Part shown: piece by piece, positions 3,225-12,701 of the stretch
Layout: every line of letters begins with the position of its first letter
Position numbering within the stretch: position 1 is the stretch's first letter
DNA from: Algimonas porphyrae
Lineage (GTDB): Bacteria; Pseudomonadota; Alphaproteobacteria; Caulobacterales; Maricaulaceae
Length of the DNA: 64,000 nt
Reading direction: 5' to 3'
Assembly: GCF_041429795.1 (NCBI RefSeq)
Contig: NZ_CP163424.1
Location: 2,482,001 to 2,546,000, forward strand
Program-made: the position numbers and the translations under genes
The notes under the pieces: model-generated
What the model was told of the DNA's origin: nothing
Database searches by the model: none
The model's input: only the letters and a program-made list of their open reading frames with translations

Positions 3225-4463
3225 ATGACCGGATCCTCTATGGCAATTGCCGCACAGACATTGGAATTGGCGCCTGCGCAGCAGGTCGAGACCCAGTCCT
3301 ATATGGTGCGCCGTCAACTGGTGAAACGTCTGGCTGATTCGATCTGCCTGCCTGAGTCCAAGTTGACACCGCAGGAACGCCACATGGCCGGCGACGTGCT
3401 GGTCGAACTGTTGCGATCGGCCGATGCGGATACGCGTGAAGCGGTCGCCAAACGGCTCGTCATGCTCAATGAAGCGCCGCGGACCATCCTGATCATTCTG
3501 GCCAAGGACGAGATCGACATCGCGCGTCACGTACTGGAAAATTCCAAGAGCCTGACCGATTCTGATCTGATCCACATCGCACGCAAGGTCCGGATGGAAC
3601 ACCGCGTCATGATCGCCCAGCGGCGACATCTGTCCGACGCGGTCGTCGACGTGCTGGTCGAATTCATGGAAGAAGATGTCGTCGAGACGATTTTGAAGAA
3701 TAAGGGCAGCAACCTGTCGGAAACGGCGATCCAACGCATTCTGGTCGTCTCGCGGTCGCACCAGCCCTATGTCGAATTGCTGGCCAAACGTGACGAAACG
3801 CGACCAAGCCACGGGCTGACCATGTTCTGGTGGGCGAATTCGTCCAATCGTCGCCGTATTCTGCAACGGTTTGCCGTCACCCGACATGTGCTGCAGGACA
3901 GCACGGCCGATCTCTACCCGCTGGCGGCGGCTGACAAGTGGCAGGACGCTGGCGTTCGAAAGGCTCTGCAATTCATCGAACGGCGGCAACGCAACCGTGT
4001 CGCGACGGAGCGATCCATTTATAGCAGCCTCGAAGAAGCAATCGAGGACGTCGCCCGGACCGGTCTGACCAAGACGCTGGCCGCCGAAATTTCCTATATG
4101 GCCGGGATCAAGCCTGCGACGGGCGCGCAGATCCTGACTGATAAGGGCGGCCACCCGCTTGCCATCCTTTGCAAGGCGCCCGGCCTGAAACGGCCCTATC
4201 TCGAAAAACTCTGGCAGGGTCTCGGACGCGCCGTCGTGACGCCAGACGGAAAAGAAGACCCGGCCTTCGCCCGCGTCATGGAAACATATGACACCATTTC
4301 CACCGATAAGGCCCAGACCGTCCTACGCTACTGGAACTGGTCGCTGACCGCGTCGCTTAGCCCGGAAGTGCTGAAGCATATCAAGAACGGGGTCATCCCG
4401 CGGGAAGAGGAATTCGGTGCCGCCGCAATTTCTGCGGCGCTCGTCTTTTCGAACCGGAACTAA
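3225..4463 (+). CDS. DUF2336 domain protein
   Basis: A 412-residue, all-helical, soluble protein of the DUF2336 family found mainly in alphaproteobacteria. There is no signal peptide or membrane segment. Charged heptad-like helices fill residues 30-190, including repeated elements such as LSDAVVDVLVE and LSETAIQRIL that resemble HEAT-like repeats. The function of the family is unknown. ATG 3240 (MAIAAQT) is an equally possible start, with GGATCC just upstream. It ends five bases from the convergent TonB-like gene. Confidence 0.8.
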   Translation: MTGSSMAIAAQTLELAPAQQVETQSYMVRRQLVKRLADSICLPESKLTPQERHMAGDVLVELLRSADADTREAVAKRLVMLNEAPRTILIILAKDEIDIARHVLENSKSLTDSDLIHIARKVRMEHRVMIAQRRHLSDAVVDVLVEFMEEDVVETILKNKGSNLSETAIQRILVVSRSHQPYVELLAKRDETRPSHGLTMFWWANSSNRRRILQRFAVTRHVLQDSTADLYPLAAADKWQDAGVRKALQFIERRQRNRVATERSIYSSLEEAIEDVARTGLTKTLAAEISYMAGIKPATGAQILTDKGGHPLAILCKAPGLKRPYLEKLWQGLGRAVVTPDGKEDPAFARVMETYDTISTDKAQTVLRYWNWSLTASLSPEVLKHIKNGVIPREEEFGAAAISAALVFSNRN

Positions 4464-4468
4464 GCCCC

Positions 4469-5194
4469 CTATTCCGGGATAAGCCGTCCCTGTTCATCCG
4501 TCAGATTGAAAACGATCCGCGTCCGGAGTCCCGTTCGGGCGACAGGTCGGCCCTCGACCAGTTCTGGCCGATAGGTCCAGCGACTGACCGCCTGCACGGC
4601 AGCACGCCTGAACAGCGTCTGTGAACAGGACTGCGCCGCCACATTATAGGGTTTTCCATCCCCGCTAATATCGAAGGTGATAAGACAATGTCCGGAACGA
4701 TCCGCCAGCCCCGGCATAGCCGGTGGTATTCGGACAATCGGTTCGGGGTCGCGGTCAATCGGGCTTAGCGTCGTCGGAAAGTCGAATGTGAGTTGCGGTA
4801 CGTGAACAGGTGTATGTGTCACGGGCACAAGCGTTTCCTGGGGGCGTCCGGTCTCAGGGACTCCGATCATCGGAGGGGCGGGCGGAATTTCGACTTGCTT
4901 CAAAGGATCGGGTCGTCGCCGATCCAGACGGAGTGGCGGATCGATGATTATGGGATTGATGTCATAGGCCACGCGAGCCGACTTATCCTGCGGCCGGAAG
5001 TCCTCCGATATCAAGGTCTGCATCGTGATGAACAATCCCGCCGTTATGATTGCGGCCCCCGTCAGAACGGGGAGAAAGGCTGCGTGAGAGCCGTGCCGCG
5101 ACATGGCGGCCGATAGCGTCTCATGGGAGCGAGTTGCGGCTTTATACGGCCGGATATGTTGACCCATTTGTAAAACCAGAGGCGCTGCGCTCAT
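4469..5194 (-). CDS. TonB-family protein, second paralogue
   Basis: A 241-residue single-pass protein. About 38 cytoplasmic residues precede one transmembrane helix (residues 38-62), then a proline-rich periplasmic linker and a TonB-type C-terminal domain. That C-terminal domain closely parallels the TonB at 6997-7620. Shared features are SGHC, FDIS versus FDVS, a CSQTLFRR versus CTQDLFRR element, an RW-Y-P motif and the last residues IPE. The two genes are therefore paralogues. Its own GGGAG ribosome site and the terminator at 5277-5300 separate it from the big operon. It probably couples inner-membrane proton-motive force to outer-membrane receptors. Confidence 0.82.
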   Translation of the reverse strand: MSAAPLVLQMGQHIRPYKAATRSHETLSAAMSRHGSHAAFLPVLTGAAIITAGLFITMQTLISEDFRPQDKSARVAYDINPIIIDPPLRLDRRRPDPLKQVEIPPAPPMIGVPETGRPQETLVPVTHTPVHVPQLTFDFPTTLSPIDRDPEPIVRIPPAMPGLADRSGHCLITFDISGDGKPYNVAAQSCSQTLFRRAAVQAVSRWTYRPELVEGRPVARTGLRTRIVFNLTDEQGRLIPE

Positions 5195-5276
5195 AATGTC
5201 ACTCCCTTATATAGTTACTGTATAACATAACTACGCAAGAGATGCAAACGGCTCACGGTGGCCCATATCCGGCAAT

Positions 5277-5300
5277 AAAAAACCCAGCCCGAAGGCTGGG
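5277..5300 (-). terminator. Rho-independent terminator of the exb/tonB operon
   Basis: On the minus strand a 7-bp stem CCCAGCC/GGCTGGG with a TTCG loop is followed by TTTTTT. It lies 29 bases after the stop of the TPR gene and before the second TonB gene. Confidence 0.88.
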
Positions 5301-5328
5301 TGATTATCCTGATAATCGGCGCTAGGCG

Positions 5329-6822
5329 TTAGCCGGTCGTCGTCCGGACATAGAGCCTGTCATAGTCAGGCTTGAATTTCAGGCAATTCTCATCTTCCAG
5401 ATCAAACTCGCCACCGGCAAAGACGATATTGTCATATTCAAGCTTGATTTTGGAGTAGCAGAGCTCGCGTTCGACATTGCGCTCGAACTCGCAACGCGCT
5501 TCAACCGCCTGACGCTCTTCCGTGATAAACTTGATCCAGCGACGTGCATTGCGGGCTTCGCGCGATGTCGACGGAACTTTCTGGAAGGTCTGAATGGCTT
5601 TAGCCCGGATTTGCGTGATCGGTGCGCTATCCATCTGTGCATCCGTCATCTCGCAATCGAGACGTGAGGCTTTCTGCGTTGAATCATAGATACAGTTCGC
5701 AACCTGCATCCAGGATTTGCCGGCATCATAGCCGCGATCGATCGCCTGGCGGAATGCGGTTTCGGCTTTGTCGCACTGCCCTTCATTAAAGAAGGCTTCG
5801 CCCAGATCGGCGTAGAGCTTGGCGCTGCTCGACGACTTGGCCGCTTCTTCGAGAACCGGGATTGCACGGCCATATTCACGCGCCGCGCGCCAGTAGTTGG
5901 AAAGTTCCTTGAGATTGTCGGCACTGCGCGACACGCGCCCTGCATTCATCTCGCGGTCCATGATCACGGCAGCCTGATAAGGCATGTCGTAATAGGAATA
6001 GTAGGAAATCACCTTCTTGATGTCGGGCTCGCTCGTCAGCGCGCCACCGAGATAGAGCATCTTATTGACTTCGAACGCGTCTTTTTCACGTCCGCCGCTG
6101 GCCAGAAGCGAAATCCAGTTGTTCCAGTTAGTCTGATCTTCGGGCCAGCGCTGGATCATTTCCTTGACGATATCCGCCTGACGTTCGGGCATGCCGAGAT
6201 CATTGTAGAGGAAATTCAGCAGGTCGAAATGCTTCTTCTCTTTTGGGTTGGCGCGGTTGAACCAGCGTTCGGCCCATGGCAGCGCGCGCTGATATTCCTC
6301 GGCGCTGACCCAGGCCGATACGAGCAGATCGACATAGCTCGGCTTTTCCTGAACGCCGCGCGCCAGCAAGGCTTCCAGCTTCAACGCGCCTTCGCGATAC
6401 TGCTCATTGGCGATCAGGAGCTGGGCGATCGCCAGTTCGATCTGCTCGGCTTCCGCCGGCAGGAGGCCGCCGGAGTCGATCGCGCTCTGGAACGATTGCA
6501 GCGACATCGACATATTATTGACGTCATTATAACTCTGACCAAGCATCTGATAGATGATCGACCGCTCATAAGGGATGAGCTCGGAATTGGTTGACAGAAG
6601 ACCGTTGAGAATGTTGATCGCCGTCTGAGGATCATCGGCGTTGATCGCTTGTAGCGCCTCATTCACTTTTTCACCAGCGGCCGCACTGAACTGTCGCGCT
6701 TCTTCGGGAGCGGGCTCCTGCGCGAAGGCCGGCGCGATCACGCCGGACAGGCTCACTGTCGCAACAGCCATCAGGCTCGCGCCAAGCAGGCTGGCTGTTC
6801 TGAACTTAAGGGCGTTCATCAT
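5329..6822 (-). CDS. Periplasmic TPR-repeat protein of the exb/tonB operon
   Basis: A 497-residue exported protein. The signal peptide ends near the AFAQ of residues 32-35. It is then almost entirely helical repeats of TPR type, clearest around residues 320-375 (YADLGEAFFNEGQ, AETAFRQAID). Six cysteines sit in the C-terminal third, which would fit disulfides in the periplasm. AGGAG six bases before ATG 6822 supports the start. It is the last gene of the operon. TPR proteins accompany TonB2-type systems in gammaproteobacteria, where they help energy transduction; the same role is inferred here. Confidence 0.82.
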   Translation of the reverse strand: MMNALKFRTASLLGASLMAVATVSLSGVIAPAFAQEPAPEEARQFSAAAGEKVNEALQAINADDPQTAINILNGLLSTNSELIPYERSIIYQMLGQSYNDVNNMSMSLQSFQSAIDSGGLLPAEAEQIELAIAQLLIANEQYREGALKLEALLARGVQEKPSYVDLLVSAWVSAEEYQRALPWAERWFNRANPKEKKHFDLLNFLYNDLGMPERQADIVKEMIQRWPEDQTNWNNWISLLASGGREKDAFEVNKMLYLGGALTSEPDIKKVISYYSYYDMPYQAAVIMDREMNAGRVSRSADNLKELSNYWRAAREYGRAIPVLEEAAKSSSSAKLYADLGEAFFNEGQCDKAETAFRQAIDRGYDAGKSWMQVANCIYDSTQKASRLDCEMTDAQMDSAPITQIRAKAIQTFQKVPSTSREARNARRWIKFITEERQAVEARCEFERNVERELCYSKIKLEYDNIVFAGGEFDLEDENCLKFKPDYDRLYVRTTTG

Positions 6823-6962
6823 GATCGTCTCCTGTCAATCTGTCTCGGAGCCATCCGATAGACATCGTACGGCCCGTTTATTCTCGGATACCCGTATCTC
6901 AAGGCGCCGGAACGCAGCCGATAAGAGCATCATGGTCGCGGCGTATTGTCAGAAGCGCCGCA

Positions 6963-6982
6963 GGCAGGCTCGAAAGCCTGCC
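6963..6982 (-). other. Intercistronic hairpin between tonB and the TPR gene
   Basis: An 8-bp perfect stem GGCAGGCT/AGCCTGCC with a four-base loop sits between the tonB stop (6997) and the TPR start (6822). No T-run follows, so it is more likely an mRNA processing or stabilising element than a terminator. Confidence 0.5.
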
Positions 6983-6996
6983 ATGAATTGCAACCC

Positions 6997-7620
6997 CTAT
7001 TCCGGGATGACGTTCCCACGTTCATCGGCCAGCTGGAACGTGATCTTCGTTTCCACGCCCTTCCGACCGATTGGACGTCCGTCCTGAATCTTGGGGTTAT
7101 ACTTCCAGCGCTCCACGGAACGGACCGAGTTGCGGCGGAACAGATCCTGCGTGCAATAGGTTGCCTGGATGTTGAAAGGCTGTCCTTCCGGCGACACGTC
7201 GAACCGCATCCGGCAATGGCCAGACTTTTCGGCCCGGGCCGGCATTTGCGGCGGGATCCGGACGAGAGGCTGTGCGTCGCGGTCCGACACGGCAATCTGA
7301 AACTGCGAACGATCGATCGTCGGGGCTTCAAATTCGGGGATTGCACCTTCGACGACCGCGATTGGTTCAGATGGGCGGTCGGCTTTCTGACGTTCGATCT
7401 GTGGCGGTGGTGGCGGTGTTTCGATCTTTTTGATCTCGGCGATCTTGGTTTCACGCTCGAGGATCTTCAGATCTTCAACCTTCGGATTGATCTCGAACGC
7501 TTCCAGATCGAGCTTGTCTTCCGGTTTGAACTCCTCGGAGATGAGGCTCATCATGAGGACGAACAGGACGACCGTCACGAATGCCGCAGGGATAATGGCA
7601 AGCCAGCGAAGAAAACTCAT
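6997..7620 (-). CDS. tonB: TonB-family energy transducer
   Basis: A 207-residue inner-membrane-anchored periplasmic protein. One N-terminal membrane helix (residues 5-25, after MSFLRW) is followed by an acidic/basic region, a PPPPP stretch near residue 71 and a TonB C-terminal domain (residues about 130-207) ending IPE. It would link the ExbB/ExbD motor to TonB-dependent outer-membrane receptors. AAGGA six bases upstream of ATG 7620 supports the start. It follows exbD with a gap of 12 bases. A paralogue lies at 4469-5194. Confidence 0.9.
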   Translation of the reverse strand: MSFLRWLAIIPAAFVTVVLFVLMMSLISEEFKPEDKLDLEAFEINPKVEDLKILERETKIAEIKKIETPPPPPQIERQKADRPSEPIAVVEGAIPEFEAPTIDRSQFQIAVSDRDAQPLVRIPPQMPARAEKSGHCRMRFDVSPEGQPFNIQATYCTQDLFRRNSVRSVERWKYNPKIQDGRPIGRKGVETKITFQLADERGNVIPE

Positions 7621-7632
7621 GTCAAATCCTTC

Positions 7633-8028
7633 CTATTCCGTACCGACGCGAGTCTCGACACCGAGGTCCTGGAACAGTTCCTGAACCCCCATGACGGTTC
7701 CAACATCCGCATTGCGGTCTGCCTGGATGATCGCGTTGGCCTTAGGTGTTTCGTCCCGCAGCGCAGTCAGAATCGGGCGAATCTCCTCGATCCTGTAAGG
7801 ACGCTTGTCGATCCACACATTGGATGAGCTGTCGACGGCAACCAGAATGGTCGGGTTCCACTCAACATCCGTCGTCGCTTCGGGCTTGAAGGGTTCAAGA
7901 CCGGGCGTTTTGACGAAGACTGACGTCACGATGAAGAAGATCAGCAGAATGAAGACGACGTCGAGCATCGGCGTCATATTCAACTCTGTGCCTTCATCCT
8001 CGATAACGGTGCGTGAGCGACGGGCCAT
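7633..8028 (-). CDS. exbD: ExbD-type proton channel subunit (second copy)
   Basis: A 131-residue ExbD/TolR protein: a short cytoplasmic N-terminus, one membrane helix (residues 20-42) and a periplasmic domain. The proton-carrying Asp is Asp23 in NMTPMLDVVF. It is paralogous to the exbD immediately upstream (8108-8524) but lacks that protein's proline run. AAGG precedes ATG 8028. Two ExbD genes in tandem suggest that a mixed ExbD dimer assembles in the motor. Confidence 0.93.
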   Translation of the reverse strand: MARRSRTVIEDEGTELNMTPMLDVVFILLIFFIVTSVFVKTPGLEPFKPEATTDVEWNPTILVAVDSSSNVWIDKRPYRIEEIRPILTALRDETPKANAIIQADRNADVGTVMGVQELFQDLGVETRVGTE

Positions 8029-8107
8029 AATGTTACCTTATATCATTATCGGAGCATTTGCAAGGTCGACGCACAGTTCTGACGCACCCGACCCAGTCAA
8101 CACCCCT

Positions 8108-8524
8108 CTATGAAACCTCTATGATTTCGATCTTCGACTGCATGCCGCGTCCGTCCAGACCATCCTTGAGCTGCACGAGCACATTATGTTTGGCTTCGGG
8201 ATGAAGGCGAAGAATGACCGAGGCTCCGGGCTTGTCGGCGAGCTGACGCTCGACGCGGGCCATGACACCATTGCAGGTCGACCGGACCTGATCGACGGAA
8301 CACTGGCTGTTCTCATCGACATAGACCGTGATCGCGGGCGGGCTGTTAGGCGGCGGTGGCGTATCTTCCGGCGGCGGTGGCGGCTGTGTCAGATCGACAC
8401 CCGTTTCGTCCAGAAAGACAGCGGTGACGATGAAGAAGATCAACATGATGAAAACGATGTCGAGCATCGGTGTCATATCGACATCGGCTTCATCGTCATT
8501 ATTGCGGCGGCGATTGCGTCTCAT
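8108..8524 (-). CDS. exbD: ExbD-type proton channel subunit (first copy)
   Basis: A 138-residue ExbD/TolR protein with an Arg-rich cytoplasmic start, the membrane helix with Asp22 in DMTPMLDIVF, then an unusual proline-rich linker (PPPPPED, PPPPNSPP) of about 17 residues just outside the membrane. Two cysteines (near residues 76 and 83) follow and could form a disulfide. GGGAGG eight bases upstream supports ATG 8524. It lies 13 bases after the small exbB. Confidence 0.93.
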   Translation of the reverse strand: MRRNRRRNNDDEADVDMTPMLDIVFIMLIFFIVTAVFLDETGVDLTQPPPPPEDTPPPPNSPPAITVYVDENSQCSVDQVRSTCNGVMARVERQLADKPGASVILRLHPEAKHNVLVQLKDGLDGRGMQSKIEIIEVS

Positions 8525-8537
8525 GGATCAGGCCTCC

Positions 8538-9065
8538 CTAGTAGGCGCCGCGATCGACGACGAGATCGTCGGCGAAGCGGGCAGTCTCACGCGCGCTCCA
8601 GCGCGGCAGGACAGTGGAGAAGTAAAGCCCCGACAGAGCCGCCATCATGCCGGCCATAGTCGGAATTGTGGCGCGGAACACGCCCCCAGCCATCAGGCGA
8701 GCCGAACTGGACCCGGAGTAAGCCAGCACATCGAATACGTCGATCATACCGGTCACGGTACCGAGCAGGCCAAGCAGCGGGGCAAGTGCAACCAGTGTCT
8801 TGATCAGGGCGACGTTGGAAATGGTCCGCTCCTTGACCTGGCTGATCATTTCATCGCGAATTGCGAGGGCGCGCCAAGATGAGCGGTCAGTACGGGCATC
8901 CCATTCCGCCTTCAGACGATTTTTCATCGGCTTATGGGCGATCAGATAATAGGCGATGCGCTCGAGAATGAAGGTCCACATCGCGAAAATAACGATCGCG
9001 ATCGGGATCAGGACGGGTCCGCCCTGCTGGAGGAAGCTCTGAAGGCCGCCGATGATGTTGCCCAT
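8538..9065 (-). CDS. exbB: Small ExbB-type proton channel subunit
   Basis: A 175-residue MotA/TolQ/ExbB family membrane protein with three membrane helices and the family core LLGLLGTVTGM followed by LMAGGV. It is shorter than E. coli ExbB (244) and matches the ExbB2 type found with TonB2 systems. AAAGGA precedes ATG 9065. It is flanked by the large ExbB upstream and two ExbD genes downstream, so it likely forms the proton channel pentamer or a mixed pentamer with the larger protein. Confidence 0.92.
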   Translation of the reverse strand: MGNIIGGLQSFLQQGGPVLIPIAIVIFAMWTFILERIAYYLIAHKPMKNRLKAEWDARTDRSSWRALAIRDEMISQVKERTISNVALIKTLVALAPLLGLLGTVTGMIDVFDVLAYSGSSSARLMAGGVFRATIPTMAGMMAALSGLYFSTVLPRWSARETARFADDLVVDRGAY

Positions 9066-9149
9066 TGGGATATCCTTTCGGGGTCGTCGTTTCGGGGTCG
9101 TCTATCGAGGCCGCCGGACGCCAAGGCCCGATGGCAGACGGGATAGTCG

Positions 9150-9176
9150 CCACCGCCCGGTCGAGCCGGACGGTGG
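9150..9176 (-). other. Intercistronic hairpin between the two exbB genes
   Basis: Arms CCACCG/CGGTGG enclose a second stem CCGG/CCGG with loop TCGAG. No T-run follows. It lies in the 121-base gap between the large and small exbB genes and could set the stoichiometry of the two subunits by mRNA processing. Its 13-base core CCGGTCGAGCCGG recurs at 44968-44980. Confidence 0.5.
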
Positions 9177-9186
9177 CTGAAAAACC

Positions 9187-10578
9187 CTAGATATTGGTGA
9201 CCGGGGCACCACCGACGCCGCGCGATTCGACGTGACGTGCCACGATACCGGCGGATTGCTCTTCCAGTGTCGCCTGGACCGAGCGAGCCATAGAGGCTGC
9301 GAAGCTGTGAATGATCAGCAGCGGGATCGCAACGATCAGACCCAACATCGTGGTCACAAGAGCGACCGAGATACCACCAGCCATCAGCTGCGGATCACCT
9401 GCACCATAGATCATCATGGCTTGGAAGGTCTGGATCATACCGGTCACGGTACCCAGCAGACCCATCAGCGGCGCGATACCGGCGATCAGCTTGATGAAGT
9501 TGAGGCCGAATTCGAGTTTCGGGCTTTCCTGAAGAATGGCTTCGTCCAGCTTCAGCTCAACAGTGTCGGCATCGGCATTGCGAGCACCTTCATAGGCGAG
9601 CATGACACGACCCAGTGCGTTCGACTTGGATGGCTGCGACTTCCGCTTCTGTCCGGCAACCGCCATGCGGATCAGGAACAGACGGACGATCAACAGAATG
9701 CCGAGGACCGCGGTGATAGCACCGAGCAGCATGATGATGTTACCGATAACGCCACCCTGCTGAGCGCGCTCCCATGGCCCAGGACGCAGGTCGAAGGTCT
9801 TGAGCAGCTCACCACGTGTCGGATCGATCGGCGCATAGATGACCTCTCCGGAACCCGCACCGAGCAGACGATCAGCTGCAGACTGGATCGCACCGCCAGG
9901 CTGAGCCGGCAGAAGCGCCAGAAGCGGCAGGTCTTCGCCATCGGCGACAGGCGGGTTATATTGCAGGAACTCGCCGCCATTGGTCGTGAAAGCCACGAAC
10001 GGACCGACGCGCGTCACGGATGTCTGACCGTCAAGACCGGCAACCTGAGCATCGAACGCTTCGACTTCGCGCTGCTCGCGGATTTCTTCGAGCATGGTCT
10101 GCCAGATAGCATTGAGGTCGGACGTCGATGGCAGAGCGTCGGAGTTGGCGACATCACCGAGAACGCGTGTGCGGTTCGGCATTTGCGCCGTGATCAGCGA
10201 ACGATCCAGCGTCGACTTGAATTCACCAGCCATGGAGCGGGCGAGACCAAAGACTTCGCCGAACTCACCTTGAGCGGCAGTCAGCTGCGCTTTCAGCGCA
10301 TCGATCTGGTTCTGGTTGGCCTGGAAGCGCTGTTCGACGCGGCGAGCTTCGGCCTCGAGATTGCTGAGCTCCGTGCGGGCCCGGTTCAGTTCGGCCGTCT
10401 GCTGTGAAGCATTGGATTCGAAGTCGCGGATCCGCTGCTGATTGATCTGCTCCTGTTGAGCGGAATCAGCCCGGACCTGGTTCAGCAGGTCCTGGATTGA
10501 GTTGATCTGCGCCGAAGCCGGTGCAGCGAGAAGAGCCGATCCCATCAGGGCGGCCATGGTGGATTTGAAGAATTTCAT
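9187..10578 (-). CDS. Large ExbB (TtpC-like) with periplasmic coiled-coil extension
   Basis: A 463-residue inner-membrane protein. A signal peptide (to about residue 23, ending PASAQ) is followed by a Gln/Glu/Arg-rich coiled coil (residues about 25-125) resembling DUF3450. A periplasmic domain comes next, then a membrane helix near residue 275. The C-terminal MotA/TolQ/ExbB core (about 345-445) carries LMGLLGTVTGM and LMAGGIS. This layout matches TtpC, the extra ExbB-like subunit of Vibrio TonB2 systems. The coiled coil probably reaches toward the cell wall or outer membrane and meets the DUF3450 proteins encoded upstream. Confidence 0.9.
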   Translation of the reverse strand: MKFFKSTMAALMGSALLAAPASAQINSIQDLLNQVRADSAQQEQINQQRIRDFESNASQQTAELNRARTELSNLEAEARRVEQRFQANQNQIDALKAQLTAAQGEFGEVFGLARSMAGEFKSTLDRSLITAQMPNRTRVLGDVANSDALPSTSDLNAIWQTMLEEIREQREVEAFDAQVAGLDGQTSVTRVGPFVAFTTNGGEFLQYNPPVADGEDLPLLALLPAQPGGAIQSAADRLLGAGSGEVIYAPIDPTRGELLKTFDLRPGPWERAQQGGVIGNIIMLLGAITAVLGILLIVRLFLIRMAVAGQKRKSQPSKSNALGRVMLAYEGARNADADTVELKLDEAILQESPKLEFGLNFIKLIAGIAPLMGLLGTVTGMIQTFQAMMIYGAGDPQLMAGGISVALVTTMLGLIVAIPLLIIHSFAASMARSVQATLEEQSAGIVARHVESRGVGGAPVTNI

Positions 10579-10597
10579 GGTCTTGTTTCCCTGTCGA

Positions 10598-11368
10598 TTA
10601 GTTGGCGGCCATTACAGGCGCATAGATGACTTCCGGAGCCGCCTGCTCCCGGGCGACGCGGATCGTCTGACGCAGCTGACGGGTATCGACCTCGTCGAGC
10701 TGAACCCAGGACCCGCTTCCCATGTCATAACGCTTCGCAGAGTCATCACGCTTGTCGAGGAAGATGTAGGAGGTCCGGCCAAAGCGGATGAAATCGACGA
10801 CATTTCCGGGCTCTTCCGGGTGCACACCCTGATAGCTTTCCGTTGAATAGCCATAAGTCGCTTCGATCTTGTAAGCATTCAGAACCTGACGATATTGCTC
10901 TGCAGGCGATACGGCCGGATTGGCGAGCGCGGCCTGAACCCGCTGAACCCGCGCCAGGCGCTCTGTCAGGCGGAACGGCACATCCGCTCGGATCGAATCT
11001 TCGAGCTCGACCGTCATGCGCAACATCATCGGGCTCATGCCCTGCTTGATCTGCTCGACCGTGCCGAGCTGGTTGCGCACCGAGTTGATCTCGGATGTCT
11101 GACTATCGAGGAAAATCTGCTGCTGGGCCACAAACAGCTTCGTATTGTCGAGCTGCTGAAGAACGGCGCGATATTCACGCACCGCAGAGCCAGCGACATC
11201 ATCCGCTTCGTTTACCTGACGTTGCGCCGCCGCGGACGAAGCCGTGGACTGGCGCGCCGCAGAGAGGGCAGATTCGAGCTGGGCCTGAGCCGGCATCGCT
11301 GCCGTTACGGCTAATGCCGCGGCAGCGCAGGCAAGCATGGCCCGCCTGGCGTTGGATTTGATCAGCAT
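10598..11368 (-). CDS. DUF3450 periplasmic coiled-coil protein (second copy)
   Basis: A 256-residue exported DUF3450 family protein. I start it at ATG 11368 (MLIKSNARR), where AAGGA lies four bases upstream and the next residues form a clean signal peptide ending AQAQ. Longer in-frame starts up to 11428 would put 20 charged residues before the signal. A long coiled coil follows (residues about 35-110), then a globular part with the family stretch FGRTSYIFLDKRDDSAKRYD. DUF3450 genes usually precede TtpC-type exbB genes. The direct role is unknown, probably a periplasmic partner of the motor. Confidence 0.86.
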   Translation of the reverse strand: MLIKSNARRAMLACAAAALAVTAAMPAQAQLESALSAARQSTASSAAAQRQVNEADDVAGSAVREYRAVLQQLDNTKLFVAQQQIFLDSQTSEINSVRNQLGTVEQIKQGMSPMMLRMTVELEDSIRADVPFRLTERLARVQRVQAALANPAVSPAEQYRQVLNAYKIEATYGYSTESYQGVHPEEPGNVVDFIRFGRTSYIFLDKRDDSAKRYDMGSGSWVQLDEVDTRQLRQTIRVAREQAAPEVIYAPVMAAN

Positions 11369-11436
11369 GGTGTCCTTCCAGGTCTGGTTCATATTATTGT
11401 CCCGATTTTTGCGTTTCACCTTCATCACGAGCGCGC

Positions 11437-12279
11437 CTAACTGGCGTCCGCGGCACGTTCACCCTTGCGGATGGGCGCCGTCATCGTGCTGATGGCCGAC
11501 TCACCCCGGGCGATGCGTACATTCTGACGCAGTCCCAGAAGTTCCGAGTTGGACAGAGCGTCCCACTCCTTGGTGTCTTCATTGTAGCGATAACCTTCGG
11601 AGCTATCCCGCTCCAGATAGAGCAACGCCATGCGGCCATAATGAATGAAGTTGCCATCATAGATCTGGTCACGCAGGTCGAACAGCACGGCCCCGCTTTC
11701 AAGCGCCTGCTCCTGTTCGTCGGAGAGATCGCATTCAGCCGATTCGACGTTCTGTTCGCAGGCCGCGAAACGGGTGCCGGGATTGATCGGATTATTGCCC
11801 GTATAGGAACCGACTTGAAGGCCATATTCGACCTCGGTCCCGATCAACTCCATGGCGCGACGATAGATGTCACTGGCCAGCAGACCGTCGCCCTGAAGGT
11901 CTTCGCGGAGTGAATCCAGCAATCCAAAACGACGCTCGATCCGGAAGGGAAGGCCATCGACCATTTCCTTTTCGAGCTCGGCGACCATGGTACGAACCAG
12001 CGGGATCAGCTCTTCGGACGCGTCATTATTCTGCGCGGCCTCGATCCGCTGCGTCAGGCTCGCAATCTCGGCCTGCTGCTGCGTGAGGTAATATTCTCTG
12101 AGGGCAAGGTTGGAACGACGAGCTGTAATCTCCTCCAGAACCGATTCATATTCGGCTACGGAGACCGGGACTGTCTGATCCTGAGCTTGGGCGGGTACAC
12201 CCATAATCGCACTCAGGGAGACTCCCAGACAGGCAACTGTGCACAGGGCAAGTTGCCGGGCAGGTTGAGATAGCACCAC
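11437..12279 (-). CDS. DUF3450 periplasmic coiled-coil protein (first copy)
   Basis: A 280-residue exported protein and the first gene of the operon. It begins at GTG 12279 with GGAGGA five bases upstream. The signal peptide ends PAQAQ near residue 33. It shares with its neighbour the sequence order coiled coil, LVRTMVAELE, RIERR, then HYGRMALLYLERDSSEGYRYN. An insertion holding two cysteines near residues 180-190 is absent from the second copy. Tandem duplication followed by divergence is inferred. Confidence 0.84.
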   Translation of the reverse strand: MVLSQPARQLALCTVACLGVSLSAIMGVPAQAQDQTVPVSVAEYESVLEEITARRSNLALREYYLTQQQAEIASLTQRIEAAQNNDASEELIPLVRTMVAELEKEMVDGLPFRIERRFGLLDSLREDLQGDGLLASDIYRRAMELIGTEVEYGLQVGSYTGNNPINPGTRFAACEQNVESAECDLSDEQEQALESGAVLFDLRDQIYDGNFIHYGRMALLYLERDSSEGYRYNEDTKEWDALSNSELLGLRQNVRIARGESAISTMTAPIRKGERAADAS

Positions 12280-12625: not shown

Positions 12626-12701
12626 TGGCTGGGGTGGCTGGACTCGAACCAGCGGTACACGCTACCAAAAAGCGTTGCCTTACCAACTTGGCTACACCCC
12701 A
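12626..12701 (-). tRNA. tRNA-Gln (anticodon TTG)
   Basis: On the minus strand the acceptor TGGGGTG pairs with CACCCCA, followed by discriminator G and an encoded CCA. The anticodon stem ACGCT/AGCGT encloses the loop TTTTGGT (anticodon TTG), and the T arm GCTGG-TTCGAGT-CCAGC is intact. The TGGGG start and G discriminator are glutamine tRNA identity features. Confidence 0.97.

Follow-up and report, generated by a model that had tools for sequence, protein, structure and literature searches.

A clade-wide variant of the TonB2-type Ton motor operon with two ExbD and two DUF3450 genes in Algimonas porphyrae and its relatives

Introduction

An energising operon located in a 64,000-nucleotide stretch of the genome of the marine bacterium Algimonas porphyrae (hereafter the window) raises the question of whether a known Ton motor has been enlarged locally in this bacterium or whether the operon belongs to a wider variant, and of what two ExbD proteins could do in a single motor. 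In the TonB2 system of Vibrio vulnificus (ttpB2-ttpC2-exbB2-exbD2-tonB2-ttpD2), genes of the same families are found in the same order, and both ttpB2 (DUF3450) and ttpD2 (TPR) are indispensable to the system (PMC6957404). However, that operon has one ExbD and one DUF3450, whereas the window has two of each and a second TonB located past a terminator. The initial annotation of this DNA had described three component types duplicated side by side, and had proposed either a hetero-oligomeric motor or one motor serving two TonB outputs. A literature search has retrieved no description of this locus type in the Maricaulaceae.

Results

Gene content and identity of the operon

The gene content, conservation, phylogeny and selection described below have been computed from the window and from related genomes. 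All nine open reading frames of the initial annotation are present in the minus strand, with the families and places assigned to them, and the terminator ahead of the second TonB gene is also present. The features are the following (window positions):

11437-12279, minus strand: DUF3450 copy b (DUF3450b), TtpB-like, exported, with a Cys-X8-Cys insert (PF11932, 100.6 bits, in two stretches)
10598-11428, minus strand: DUF3450 copy a (DUF3450a), TtpB2 orthologue (PF11932, 192 bits)
9187-10578, minus strand: long ExbB, TtpC-like, with an N-terminal coiled coil, a periplasmic domain and a C-terminal MotA/ExbB domain (PF01618 at residues 332-439, and alignment)
8538-9065, minus strand: short ExbB (PF01618)
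8108-8524, minus strand: ExbDa, diverged ExbD with a proline-rich linker and Cys-X8-Cys, membrane Asp intact (PF02472, trees, structure matches of the model)
7633-8028, minus strand: ExbDb, less diverged ExbD whose predicted dimer-swapped strand contains a proline, membrane Asp intact (PF02472, trees)
6997-7620, minus strand: operon TonB (TonB_C), its membrane helix followed by the candidate D-box KPEDKLDLEAFEINP (PF03544, N-terminal comparison)
5329-6822, minus strand: exported TPR protein, TtpD-like (TPR_16, 28 bits, and position and homology across loci)
5282-5301, minus strand: intrinsic terminator in the gap between the TPR and second TonB genes (stem 5301-5282, then TTTTT)
4469-5194, minus strand: second TonB (TonB_C), separate unit, fast-evolving (PF03544)

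A significant Pfam match was obtained for eight of the nine genes, the best repeat match of the TPR protein lying just below or at the cut-off, and both DUF3450 copies exceeded the PF11932 gathering score of 32.6 bits. A Tol-Pal (TolQR) identity was rejected by the TolR scores (44.8 and 31.5, cut-off 127.3) and by the TolQ scores (60.3 and 28.9, cut-off 221). The gene order is that of TonB2/TtpBCD-type operons, that is DUF3450, long ExbB, short ExbB, ExbD, TonB and the TPR gene in last place, and the locus can be assigned almost with certainty to this type of Ton motor. It departs from the one copy of each component of that type by its two DUF3450 and two ExbD genes. The claimed duplication of three component types was thus right for ExbD and DUF3450 and wrong for ExbB, since a long (TtpC) and a short ExbB are the standard pair of TonB2-type operons.

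The surroundings of the genes were also inspected. A tRNA-Gln gene is located upstream of the operon (12626-12701). At the other end, a DUF2336 protein gene (3225-4463, plus strand) is convergent and ends 5 bases from the second TonB stop; its product has weak similarity to SpbR, below the cut-off. A strong hairpin without T run is placed directly 3' of the long ExbB stop (9149-9177, minus strand; gap fold z -1.98), and hairpins with differing sequences occur in the same gap in about ten related genomes. This hairpin between the long and the short ExbB genes possibly sets the ratio of the two proteins.

The order of the genes is the same as in the window in 40 of 40 relatives examined within the order Caulobacterales, except for the presence of DUF3450b and of extra TonBs, and every locus of this type surveyed there has DUF3450a. 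Among 80 named long-ExbB loci, the cassette was found in nearly all those of sufficient length to judge. The operon is therefore a known motor in a variant form shared across the clade, and not a one-off enlargement, and it is filed as a variant instead of a plain member because the ExbD and DUF3450 copy number differs clade-wide.

Distribution, phylogeny and selection of the ExbD pair

The ExbDa-ExbDb pair was found in fixed 1:1 order in all 41 loci, which belong to the Maricaulaceae, Hyphomonadaceae and Parvularculaceae (families f1, f2 and f5), so that the synteny comparison suggested by the initial annotation has confirmed the pair and removed the novelty of a local enlargement. The window itself belongs to the Maricaulaceae and not to the Hyphomonadaceae, the family for which that comparison had been suggested. 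Named carriers of two ExbD genes include Glycocaulis and Oceanicaulis (Maricaulaceae), Henriciella and Ponticaulis (Hyphomonadaceae) and members of the Parvularculaceae; outside those three families, Rhodothalassium also has two. A single ExbD is present in nearly all gammaproteobacterial cassettes, in those of the Myxococcota and in some alphaproteobacterial ones, with two ExbD genes in a few gammaproteobacterial MAGs. In one named alphaproteobacterial locus (L162) one ExbD is visible, and the sequence stretch stops there. Tandem ExbD duplications also occur in unrelated lineages (for example L192, L212 and G167).

Both copies have the features of the ExbD/TolR family, a single N-terminal membrane helix with Asp and a periplasmic alpha/beta domain, and the proton-carrying Asp of this helix is kept in ExbDa and ExbDb of every locus. 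In the tree that includes Rhodothalassium, the first copies (ExbDa) and the second copies (ExbDb) of the order are separated with supports of 93/93 and 96/81. The other ExbD tree shows the same separation with two exceptions, as two single ExbDs from gammaproteobacteria are placed among the ExbDb copies and an orphan ExbD within ExbDa. As first and second copies separate across three families, the ExbD split is older than the families. A common origin of ExbDa with family f27 appeared in one tree, was not recovered in the tree including Rhodothalassium and is not claimed.

According to the trees and the dN/dS values, ExbDa is the diverged and faster-evolving copy, and ExbDb is placed near the single ExbDs. 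The dN/dS values were about 0.05-0.10 for ExbDa and 0.015-0.15 for ExbDb, all omegas being approximate because dS is saturated, with values above 2, in part of the pairwise comparisons. The initial annotation had considered that the locus would be no new variant if close relatives all carried this set as an ordinary one or if the second ExbD, TonB or DUF3450 copies were under relaxed selection. Close relatives do all carry the set; the ExbD and DUF3450 copies are under purifying selection instead (omega about 0.02-0.2), and relaxed or decaying copies were therefore rejected. A recent local expansion of the operon was likewise rejected by the conservation in relatives and by the ExbD and DUF3450 trees.

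The AlphaFold2 model of ExbDa (pLDDT 84.9) matched the ExbD periplasmic structures 8pek, 8vgd and 8p9r, including D-box complexes, and also TolR structures; by its match with ExbD structures, the diverged copy retains the fold. The proline-rich linker noticed in one ExbD is conserved in relatives, and it is weak evidence for a hetero-oligomeric motor.

Other arrangements were seen in the surveyed loci. Family f4 of the same order (L237, L238 and L241) has no DUF3450 and carries in its place a TonB-ExbB-ExbD-ExbD set like those of Xanthomonas and Sphingobium, so that one order contains two different Ton operons with tandem ExbDs. In family f27 (L140:8041-9059), the TPR gene has downstream of it a second TonB, straight after which a third ExbD follows. 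In two gammaproteobacterial MAGs, one of them Arenicella (L187:12463-15192 and L202:12413-15189), the full cassette is followed by a partial second one with DUF3450, a long ExbB and an ExbD with proline-rich linker, lacking the short ExbB.

The second DUF3450 and coincident changes in both ExbD proteins

DUF3450b, the upstream copy, was found in every one of the 18 genomes belonging to the genus of the window and in seven other Maricaulaceae genera, that is, in 25 of 25 genomes of the clade, and it is absent from 11 further Maricaulaceae genera and from the other families with the operon. All DUF3450b sequences group together in a single clade (SH-aLRT 99), next to the DUF3450a sequences from these genomes, and one change suffices to explain the trait on the tree of the other operon proteins. 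DUF3450b has a single origin, within the Maricaulaceae. Its rate of evolution is roughly two to three times that of DUF3450a, under purifying selection (omega 0.07-0.19, approximate values with partly saturated dS). The Cys-bearing insert that had been noticed in this copy was identified as a Cys-X8-Cys motif, conserved in 23 of the 25 genomes. No DUF3450 counterpart was found in the PDB by sequence search, nor by Foldseek search with the DUF3450b model (pLDDT 84.8).

Two changes in the ExbD pair coincide with DUF3450b. A periplasmic Cys-X8-Cys in ExbDa was found in 25/25 DUF3450b genomes and in 0/16 of the remaining loci of the order; in L066, which lies outside the clade, a Cys-X5-Cys occupies a comparable position. 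The second change, with the same distribution (25/25 and 0/16), is the presence of proline within the segment of ExbDb that matches, in an alignment made by eye, the intermolecular strand (NIBS) defined for the ExbD dimer (PMC10771500). These coincident sequence changes suggest a contact between DUF3450b and ExbD that may be taken as a lead, not as proof, because a single event on one long branch gives no proof of a functional link.

TonB proteins and other motors of the genome

In 20 of the 28 scorable Maricaulaceae loci, with or without DUF3450b, the TPR gene is followed downstream by a TonB gene at a distance of no more than 3 kb. The second TonB of the window has the membrane helix and the post-membrane motif in common with the operon TonB (N-terminal comparison), and it is the fastest-evolving part (omega 0.17-0.32, approximate). 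The post-membrane stretch of the operon TonB, KPEDKLDLEAFEINP, fits the E. coli TonB D-box pattern (PMC10907165) when matched by eye. A dedicated role of the second TonB, for example with a particular receptor set, could be the reason for the enlarged motor, and both the shared N-terminal features and its recurrence in relatives would agree with this. Nevertheless, this explanation is improbable, as the gene is missing in 8 of the 28 loci and evolves fastest, does not track the composition of the motor, and ten further TonB_C matches are located elsewhere in the genome.

Four ExbD matches were found in the genome, corresponding to the operon pair, a TolR-like gene and an orphan most similar to ExbDa; in the order, the usual number of ExbD genes per genome is three or four. 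The five MotA/ExbB matches are the operon pair, TolQ and two MotA-like genes. TolQ and the TolR-like gene form an adjacent pair (G000:C1:2198107-2198995) with the top ExbD and ExbB scores of the genome. The orphan (G000:C1:1673326-1673727, L145:9327-9728) has the Asp intact and no ExbB or TonB beside it, and in one tree it joins the ExbDa copies through a long branch.

No other Ton-type ExbB-ExbD set was found among these ExbD and ExbB matches, and the operon most likely encodes the only Ton motor of the genome. Since the genome has nevertheless 12 TonB_C and 25 plug domains, one motor probably drives many TonBs. The proposal of one motor for several TonB outputs is supported in this way, the sharing itself being something that we infer.

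Discussion

The explanation slightly favoured here is that the operon encodes a housekeeping Ton motor of the TonB2 type, with a heterodimeric ExbD axle and with several TonBs. According to the literature on such motors, a pentameric ring of short ExbB, partnered by the TtpC-like long ExbB, would surround two ExbD axle helices; protons would bind at the ExbD Asp, and their flow would move ExbD. ExbD would in turn grip TonB close to its N-terminus, and TonB would exert a pull on the receptors of the outer membrane. The accessory parts would be DUF3450 (TtpB) and the TPR protein (TtpD), which are required in Vibrio. In the window-type motor, the axle would consist of one ExbDa and one ExbDb, replacing the ExbD homodimer, and several TonBs would be driven by it. 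DUF3450b would be a clade-specific accessory elaboration, whose fixation falls on the long stem branch that also bears both ExbD changes.

The ExbDa-ExbDb heterodimer, which we infer, is an evenly balanced proposal. Because the pair is kept 1:1 in every genome, the simplest reading would be that each ExbD fills one of two unequal positions. In the E. coli ExbB-ExbD-TonB motor, the ExbD fold and the coupling to TonB are as in the window; however, a single ExbD forms a homodimer, and TtpB, TtpC and TtpD are lacking. Two identical ExbDs are located there in the ExbB pentamer with one TonB D-box strand between them, parallel to one and antiparallel to the other (PMC10907165), and the two Asps of the dimer point in opposite directions (PMC12905483). 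Encoding ExbDa and ExbDb in separate genes would fix this asymmetry. A stricter form, with an obligate heterodimer (five ExbB and one of each ExbD) and with DUF3450b docked on the ExbDa that carries the Cys pair, is put forward more tentatively, as its probability is below even.

The alternative that survives best, although rather unlikely, is that two homodimeric motors are assembled on the same ExbB ring, with two ExbDb for general uptake or two ExbDa for a special task. Tandem exbD genes in a Ton operon, like those of the window, are known in Xanthomonas (tonB-exbB-exbD1-exbD2, PMC3551730) and in Sphingobium SYK-6 (tonB1-exbB1-exbD1-exbD2, PMC8599685), although these operons as described begin with TonB and have no DUF3450, TtpC or TPR gene. 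Xanthomonas exbD2 is dispensable for iron uptake and needed for the pectin response (PMC3551730), and such separable roles are more easily reconciled with two alternative motors than with an obligate heterodimer. The faster evolution of ExbDa and the persistence of the orphan ExbDa-like gene alone elsewhere in the genome point in the same direction. On the other hand, both copies are present in every locus of three families, where they are mostly the only non-TolR ExbDs of the genome, and this retention without exception argues against a dispensable specialist copy. Duplications without distinct role, kept by dosage or drift, would agree with the recurrence of tandem ExbDs in unrelated lineages but are very improbable given the deep divergence, strong purifying selection and complete retention of the copies.

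The heterodimeric axle proposed here would have a parallel in the Myxococcus AglRQS motor, in which one ring protein is combined with two different Asp-bearing axle proteins, as in the window; AglRQS drives gliding, whereas the motor type of the window serves TonB-dependent transport. Whether the AglRQS axle is a heterodimer or a homodimer has been stated to be unknown (PMC9389320), and the choice between a heterodimer and swapped homodimers is thus a question common to 5:2 motors with two axle proteins. In the operon described here, the two axle positions would be encoded by separate genes, each of which can be mutated alone, so that the role of asymmetry in the motor would become directly testable.
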